Part shown: positions 22,175 through 23,641 of the stretch, in pieces
How the letters are laid out: the number at the start of each line of letters is the position of its first letter
Position numbering within the stretch: the stretch's first letter is position 1
Assembly: GCF_029263575.1 (NCBI RefSeq)
Contig: NZ_JAJUFV010000011.1
Coordinates: 1 to 34,491 of the forward strand
DNA: 34,491 bases
DNA from: Microbacterium sp.
GTDB taxonomy: Bacteria; Actinomycetota; Actinomycetes; Actinomycetales; Microbacteriaceae
Direction of reading: 5' to 3'
Notes under the pieces: model-generated
Told to the model about the DNA's origin: nothing
What the model saw: the letters and a program-made list of their open reading frames with translations, nothing else
Database searches by the model: none
Made by a program: the position numbers and the translations under genes

Positions 22175-22312
22175 ATGACTGCGGCTACTGCGGAGCCGAC
22201 AGAATCGTTCGATCAGATCGCGAGGGTCGCCCGCGAGGTGTTGCCAGGGATGAAGGTTCGCCGGGGCATGTTCTGGCGTTACACGGCGGTCTGGGTGAGG
22301 AGCATCGACTGA
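22175..22312 (+). pseudogene. Short fragment, possible C-terminal remnant
   Basis: From ATG 22175 the frame encodes 45 residues ending in LPGMKVRRGMFWRYTAVWVRS. This LPGxxVRRxxxWRY pattern resembles, from memory, the extreme C-terminal tails of some larger actinobacterial enzymes (methyltransferase- or dehydrogenase-like). I could not identify the family. The ATG is within GGAGAGCATG, with poor spacing. It may be a gene remnant or not coding at all. The rest of the gap between the APH remnant and the HNH gene (22108-22399) holds only the HNH promoter region. Confidence 0.3.
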
Positions 22313-22364: not shown

Positions 22365-22393
22365 TTGCGGCTTTCGAAGTTTTGTTCGATAAT
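22365..22393 (+). promoter_or_regulatory. Leaderless promoter of the HNH gene
   Basis: -35 TTGCGG (22365-22370), a 17-bp spacer and -10 GATAAT (22388-22393). The -10 ends 6 nt before ATG 22400. Confidence 0.7.
22374..22389. promoter_or_regulatory. LexA (SOS) box of the HNH gene
   Basis: TCGAAG-TTTT-GTTCGA matches the actinobacterial LexA site TCGAAC-N4-GTTCGA at 11 of 12 defined positions. It lies in the spacer and touches the -10, a typical place for repression. Confidence 0.7.
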
Positions 22394-22399
22394 AGCACT

Positions 22400-23641
22400 A
22401 TGCCCATCACAGCAGAACGGACGGATCCGGTTATCGCCGATGAGCGTCGTGCCGCCCCGCTCGATGAATGGGTCGATCTCGGGGCGCAGATCGCCGCGCT
22501 TGAGGCACGCCGCGCGACGGTGCTCGCCGAGCGTGCTGCGCTGCTCGCATACGAGACAGGGCCGACTGTCGCCTACAGCTCCATGGCGGAGCGATCGGCG
22601 ATTGCAGAGTTTTCGGCGGCCGGCCACGTTTCGTCGCGATCGATGAGCCACCAGTTCGGCGTCGGCATCGCACTCGCGAACGAGTACCCCGAGACGCTTC
22701 GCGCGCTGAGTGAGGGGCGAATCAGCCGTCGTCACGCCGAGGTGATCCTGGAGGCCGCACCGCGCAACATCGACGACGCCGACGATGGCGGAGCGACACT
22801 GCGGGCCGCCTACGAGCGCGATGTCGTGCCGTACGCCTGCGGCACGACTCCCCCGCGCACACGGGCACATGCGCGGGCGGTAGCCGCAACGCTGCAGCCG
22901 GTGACGCAGGAAGAAGCTCATCGCGAAGGGCGGAAGGAGCGAGAGGTTCGTGTGCGTCCCACCGACGATGGCATGGCGCAGATGCTCAGCGCTATTCCTG
23001 AACTGCTGGCCTTCGCTATCTTCGATCGGCTGACGGCGATGGCCGCCGCGATGGATGACGACCGCACGATGGACCAGCGACGCGCCGACCTCTTCTGCGA
23101 CCTGCTGCTGACCGCTGTGCCGTCGTCGGCCGTGGGAACCGATATGGAAGCATTCCGCCCGACAGTGCAGGTCACGATCGCGGCCAGCACGCTCGCCGGT
23201 CACGATGATCTGATGGCCGAACTCGACGGCGTTGGTCCGATCCACCCCGACCTCGTCCGCAGCCTGGCGGGGAACGCACCGAGCTTCACCCGGCTCTTTC
23301 TCGACCCGAGCGGCATGGTTACCAACGTCGACACCTACGTCCCCTCCAGCAGGATGAAGCGCTATCTGCGGGCCCGAGATCAGCATTGCCGGTTCCCCGG
23401 ATGCCGGGCGAAACCCTCTCGGTGCGAAATCGACCACAACCACGATCGTGCTCTGGGCGGGGCTACGGCGCTGAACAACCTCGCTTGCTTCTGTTCGAGT
23501 CATCATCCACTCAAACATCCTGATGTCGACGCACGACATCGATGGACCGTCCGGCAACAGCCGGAAGGAACACTGATCTGGCGGAGCCCGCTCGGGCGCA
23601 AGTACATCGACAGCCCGGAACTGCGCGTGATGTTCGTGTAG
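22400..23641 (+). CDS. DUF222/HNH endonuclease domain protein (13E12 type)
   Basis: The 413-residue product has an N-terminal helical DUF222 region (about residues 25-290; EAxxR and SRRHAEVILEAA segments) and a C-terminal HNH nuclease domain. The latter shows HCRFPGC (Cys330, Cys335), CEIDHNHDRALGG (Asp345, His346), TALNNLACFCSSHH (Asn360, Cys364, His368) and a W-rich tail. This is the 13E12-type family, often multicopy in actinobacterial genomes and of unclear role; several mycobacterial members are in the LexA regulon. The start is ATG 22400, not the TTG of the ORF track, because of the leaderless promoter. The stop lies in a short tandem repeat. Confidence 0.88.
   Translation: MPITAERTDPVIADERRAAPLDEWVDLGAQIAALEARRATVLAERAALLAYETGPTVAYSSMAERSAIAEFSAAGHVSSRSMSHQFGVGIALANEYPETLRALSEGRISRRHAEVILEAAPRNIDDADDGGATLRAAYERDVVPYACGTTPPRTRAHARAVAATLQPVTQEEAHREGRKEREVRVRPTDDGMAQMLSAIPELLAFAIFDRLTAMAAAMDDDRTMDQRRADLFCDLLLTAVPSSAVGTDMEAFRPTVQVTIAASTLAGHDDLMAELDGVGPIHPDLVRSLAGNAPSFTRLFLDPSGMVTNVDTYVPSSRMKRYLRARDQHCRFPGCRAKPSRCEIDHNHDRALGGATALNNLACFCSSHHPLKHPDVDARHRWTVRQQPEGTLIWRSPLGRKYIDSPELRVMFV

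Follow-up and report, generated by a model that had tools for sequence, protein, structure and literature searches.

Results

The promoter and product of the DUF222/HNH gene

The window analysed in this study is a stretch of 34,491 nucleotides that corresponds to one contig (C11) of a Microbacterium genome (G000; 3.09 Mb in 247 contigs, 88% complete), which has M. murale, M. ihumii and others as named relatives. The window contains a DUF222/HNH gene, the features of which are collected in Table 1. The region from 22365 to 22402 has the layout TTGCGG-N17-GATAAT-AGCACT-ATG, with the start codon at 22400-22402. The predicted SOS box lies inside the 17-nt spacer, its last two bases are the first two of the -10 element, and 10 nt separate its 3' end from the ATG. 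Direct reading confirmed the near-consensus LexA site of the earlier note, with a single mismatch (C6 to G) to TCGAAC-N4-GTTCGA. The same note had called the promoter well formed, which holds for the -10 element and for the conservation among orthologues but not for the -35 element, which is weak. The latter agrees with TTGACA at 3 of 6 positions, and for this reason the promoter is missing from the list of a simple sigma-70 scanner.

Table 1. Features of the DUF222/HNH gene and its promoter in the window
Feature	Position	Strand	Basis
-35-like element TTGCGG	22365..22370	+	sequence read directly; orthologue version TTGCAT
Predicted LexA/SOS box TCGAAGTTTTGTTCGA	22374..22389	+	motif scan, recA+lexA matrix, identity with Bi121
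-10 element GATAAT	22388..22393	+	direct reading; kept in orthologues
DUF222/HNH gene, 413 aa	22400..23641	+	PF02720 (E=2e-18); PHROG HNH endonuclease (E=1e-6); orthologue starts
DUF222 domain, residues 47-327	22538..23380	+	Pfam
HNH nuclease motif, residues 330-373	23387..23518	+	alignment and PHROG HNH matches

The open reading frame tool placed the start at a TTG at 22382, within the box; the orthologues start at the position of the ATG. Since six bases lie between the -10 element and this ATG, transcription is expected to begin at the ATG itself, and the transcript should be leaderless. The motif of the PafBC promoter (TGTCGG-N10-TAnnnT) was not found before the gene, where the SOS box stands alone. 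Just 5' of the gene, a 45-aa open reading frame was observed at 22175-22312, and M. ihumii (L233) has a close counterpart at the equivalent position, with FDQI..VA.E.LPG.K.RRG..WRYTAVWV shared between the two.

The protein scored 67 bits against PF02720, the cut-off being 24.4. Its HNH motif (CRFPGC...CEIDHNHD...GG.T..NL..FC..HH..KH) is intact, and the Cys, Asp-His, Asn and His residues were invariant in an alignment of 21 sequences. With all HNH residues kept, the protein should be an endonuclease, and it most likely cuts double-stranded DNA through this predicted active site. The AlphaFold model was of moderate quality (pLDDT 73, falling under 50 for some of the HNH region); a PDB fold search with it gave no match at E<=0.001, and a PADLOC search of the gene for defence systems gave no match. 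Similarities to IscB and McrA were set aside, being weak and confined to the HNH part (McrA, E=0.33). The HNH nuclease MSMEG_1275, which kills M. smegmatis (PMC9416677), was set aside as a functional guide and serves only as a lead, with a hypothetical link to DUF222.

The box compared with recA, lexA and orthologous promoters

The window contains one site with at most one mismatch to the consensus against 0.18 expected, and 15 of 100 shuffled sequences contained at least one. Across the genome, 25 such sites were found with the pattern and 10 with the reversed pattern. Judging the site by its mismatch count was therefore dropped as not distinctive. A weight matrix was built from 30 recA and 30 lexA boxes of the genus (60 sites, with zero DUF222 sequences among them), on which the window site reached 20.3 bits. 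The recA boxes themselves range from 17.7 bits, and in 400 kb of background a score of 15 bits is attained at only 2 of about 400,000 positions.

Each of the 30 Microbacterium recA promoters inspected carried TCGAA-N5-GTTC[GT]A, and all 30 lexA promoters carried a box of the CCGAA-N6-TTCGA type. Both genes are present in the window genome, lexA in contig C32 and recA in contig C76. The recA box of this genome (L102), TCGAAGATGTGTTCGA, has the same G at position 6 as the window box, so the variant base is normal for the lineage. Searches of the host genome were made by pattern and by family, and its full SOS set is not visible because the assembly is 88% complete. In the promoters of recA (L102 and 29 others), CGGCGTGTC directly 5' of the SOS box and GCGTA-N3-T on its 3' side were both strongly conserved, and these flanks are possibly a second damage element.

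Orthologues with 74-77% protein identity carried TTGCAT-N17-GATAAT or GATACT, with the box at the same place and the ATG at about the same distance; the -35 element TTGCAT is kept 17 nt 5' of GATAAT/GATACT in L231, L232 and L233. Moreover, the box of the orthologue in Microbacterium sp. Bi121 is identical to that of the window. M. murale and M. ihumii are among the species with an orthologue. The position of the operator, in the spacer and on the -10 element in the window and in the orthologues alike, is compatible with blocking of RNA polymerase. By position and comparison, and not by the motif alone, the box was confirmed as a genuine predicted SOS site.

Genus- and order-wide occurrence of the promoter pattern

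The box, the T of the -10 element and the ATG were combined into a 29-base pattern (TCGWA-N6-TTCKA-N3-T-N6-ATG). A search of 59 Microbacterium genomes with it gave 70 matches, and the reversed control gave 0. According to Pfam checks, the genes after the matches comprised 46 DUF222/HNH genes, 10 imuA, 7 sprT-like genes and 7 others, and the gene 3' of imuA reads as imuB. Since imuA and the sprT-like genes are established members of the DNA-damage response, the presence of the pattern on them fits a LexA site. The claim that the box belongs to a DUF222/HNH promoter and overlaps its -10 element was therefore supported by the recA and lexA boxes, the orthologous promoters and this genus-wide test. 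In 198 genomes of the order, the pattern again had 0 reversed-control matches; at the loci examined it preceded genes recognised by eye as imuA-, imuB- and UmuC-like, as well as DUF222 genes in two other families. A conserved protein of about 85 aa (HPQLLARE..PAHWVM.DAR..VAGTIELRR) also has a leaderless promoter with an SOS box in three Microbacterium genomes (L276, L354, L373), and a Pfam search of the L373 copy gave no match.

Two promoter classes in the DUF222 family

The family was sampled in Microbacterium as 100 DUF222 regions together with 400 kb of background. The recA and lexA matrix found 36 sites of at least 12 bits in 104 DUF222 upstream regions against 1.4 expected. The box started exactly 26 nt 5' of the start codon in 21 DUF222 genes, compared with 0 of 698 background open reading frames. 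In 23 further DUF222 genes TGTCGG was located exactly 28 nt 5' of the start, and in 3 more at 29 nt; among the 698 background frames there were 4 such cases. In both motif and spacing, this element (TGTCGG-N10-xAnnnT-N6-ATG) matches the mycobacterial PafBC promoter, a RecA-independent damage promoter reported as TGTCGG-N10-TA-N3-T (PMC8151990). In many DUF222 copies, C or G replaces the T of TAnnnT. The strict form occurred 1-47 times per Microbacterium genome, with 1 reversed-control match across all 59, and the matches examined preceded uvrB, mgsA/rarA, sbcD and genes for a UvrD-type helicase, SRAP, a sprT-like protein and polymerase delta, as well as radA by sequence.

When 98 DUF222 proteins were placed on a tree, promoter class tracked the clade; shuffled labels were never as ordered, a comparison made with the first class labels, which missed starts in long open frames. 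In the clade of the window gene, the final labels assign an SOS box, at 9-10 nt from the start, to 27 of 28 genes, and the remaining gene (L142) had a hybrid, TGTCGGAGGTATGTTCTA. Outside this clade, 48 of 70 DUF222 genes were of the PafBC type, under a final class rule that is looser and lets in a small number of false additional sites (L147, L206, L210 and L196 among others). Regarding the scan of DUF222/HNH paralogues that the earlier note had proposed, the box is thus the rule in the window clade, and most other clades have the PafBC type instead. Leaderless promoters of that type at the fixed 28 nt were observed outside the window clade in L163, L166, L168, L169, L186 and many others. Four of the 70 genes (L119, L145, L146 and L158) have a composite form, TCGAACnnATGTCCGA, whose right SOS half-site serves at the same time as the -35 motif of PafBC. 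Since the two motifs can share one register relative to the -10 element, few substitutions would interconvert them.

The DUF222 paralogues within the window genome are diverged. Further copies lie on C98 and C213, both with the box (degenerate on C213), and on C32, with neither motif. The copy number is very variable: genomes range from 0 to about 21 matches, and several have only 2-3. In another genome (G011), four DUF222-like genes (L380-L383) have a PafBC-type promoter, TGTCGG-N10-TAnnnT, and an SOS-like palindrome, TCGTAnnTTTGTTCTA, encloses its -10 element and extends to the start codon. The window genome also encodes pafC (C4, 5225-6402; L384, L387), with HTH_PafC and WYL domains, which adjoins a second WYL gene and is followed by tatC. 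The known pafBC-tat arrangement has this same order.

Discussion

Taken as a whole, the comparisons in this study make it very probable that the window site is a LexA operator, which would repress a leaderless DUF222/HNH promoter until DNA damage occurs. A LexA dimer at 22374-22389 would sit between the -35 and -10 elements, covering the first bases of the latter, and may thereby keep RNA polymerase off the promoter. According to established SOS biology, DNA damage would lead to RecA filaments and these to self-cleavage of LexA, after which the DUF222/HNH protein would be made directly from the 5' AUG. The SOS-box wiring appears to be standard for the window clade, and most other DUF222 clades would rely on a PafBC-type promoter of equal, leaderless geometry.

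It is quite improbable that the palindrome is bound by a different regulator with a similar site, for example an ArsR-type repressor. The ArsR consensus of E. coli does resemble the mycobacterial SOS box (PMC8151990), but none of the recA and lexA promoters inspected lacked this motif, which also precedes imuA and the sprT-like genes, classical genes of the damage response. Still less credit can be given to the explanation that the conserved block is a mere promoter element, an extended -10 of the form GTTC-TAnnnT in which the palindrome is incidental. The right half-site does touch the -10 element, and in most paralogues it reads TTCTA, the final TA of which begins TAnnnT. However, the left half, TCGAA, lies outside both the -10 and -35 elements and is equally conserved, while the flanks diverge. 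Moreover, the window box is recognised by a matrix from recA and lexA promoters, in which the box lies at other promoter positions.

A far more serious contender, which we place a little short of even, accepts damage induction of the gene and holds that the protein is chiefly a repair nuclease or a restriction-like or defence nuclease, rather than a multi-copy element that provokes recombination. DUF222 genes are wired together with uvrB, radA, sbcD, mgsA, imuA and sprT-like genes, a role in mismatch repair has been proposed for 13E12 HNH genes (PMC4181829), and a very weak match to McrA was found. Against these points stand the highly variable copy number and the PADLOC and fold searches, neither of which gave a significant match. 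We have a weak preference for break-induced recombination among DUF222 copies, in which a dispersed multi-copy nuclease would make breaks that are repaired by recombination while the repair machinery is induced. This role is preferred because the copy number is variable and because gene-conversion hotspots have been reported at the REP13E12 loci of M. tuberculosis (PMC13061034).

The earlier note had stated that mycobacterial 13E12 genes belong to the LexA regulon, and this is documented for M. tuberculosis (PMC5005354, PMC4181829); five RecA-dependent HNH endonucleases have likewise been reported (PMC8151990). LexA control of 13E12-type genes is thus already known, and Microbacterium would be a new lineage for it. 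The 13E12 genes of M. tuberculosis (REP13E12; Rv0515, Rv1702c, Rv3074 and Rv3776) are alike in that a multi-copy family of putative HNH nucleases is under SOS control through TCGAAC-N4-GTTCGA, and the REP13E12 regions were described in a 2026 preprint as being without a defined biological function (PMC13061034). Microbacterium differs in belonging to another actinobacterial family, in the constant 10 nt between the box and the start codon on a predicted leaderless promoter, and in having most paralogues under the PafBC type. The LexA/SOS motif of S. venezuelae (tCGAAC-N4-GNNCGa; PMC9380542) is of the same operator type and likewise has recA and lexA as targets, but the terms DUF222 and HNH are absent from the text of that regulon paper.

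The PafBC promoters are alike in motif and spacing to those found in Microbacterium before uvrB, radA, sbcD, mgsA and SRAP genes and in the majority of DUF222 clades other than that of the window gene, which itself lacks the PafBC motif. Our literature search found no paper joining 13E12 with PafBC, and the terms 'Microbacterium' and 'SOS box' co-occurred only in a Corynebacterium genome paper. The split of DUF222/HNH genes between LexA and PafBC-type promoters may therefore be new.

In conclusion, it is somewhat probable that damage control, by LexA or by a PafBC-type promoter, is the near family-wide wiring of DUF222/HNH genes in Microbacterium, with the clades split between the two regulators, both leaderless with fixed spacing and some composite, and that the family is a dedicated damage effector of Actinobacteria and not incidental mobile DNA. 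DUF222/HNH (13E12) is a much-multiplied gene family in Actinobacteria, and a conserved, family-wide damage control in a second lineage, by two regulators, would argue for a role of its proteins in cells with damaged DNA. Direct functional testing of this family is possible in those Microbacterium strains that have few copies.
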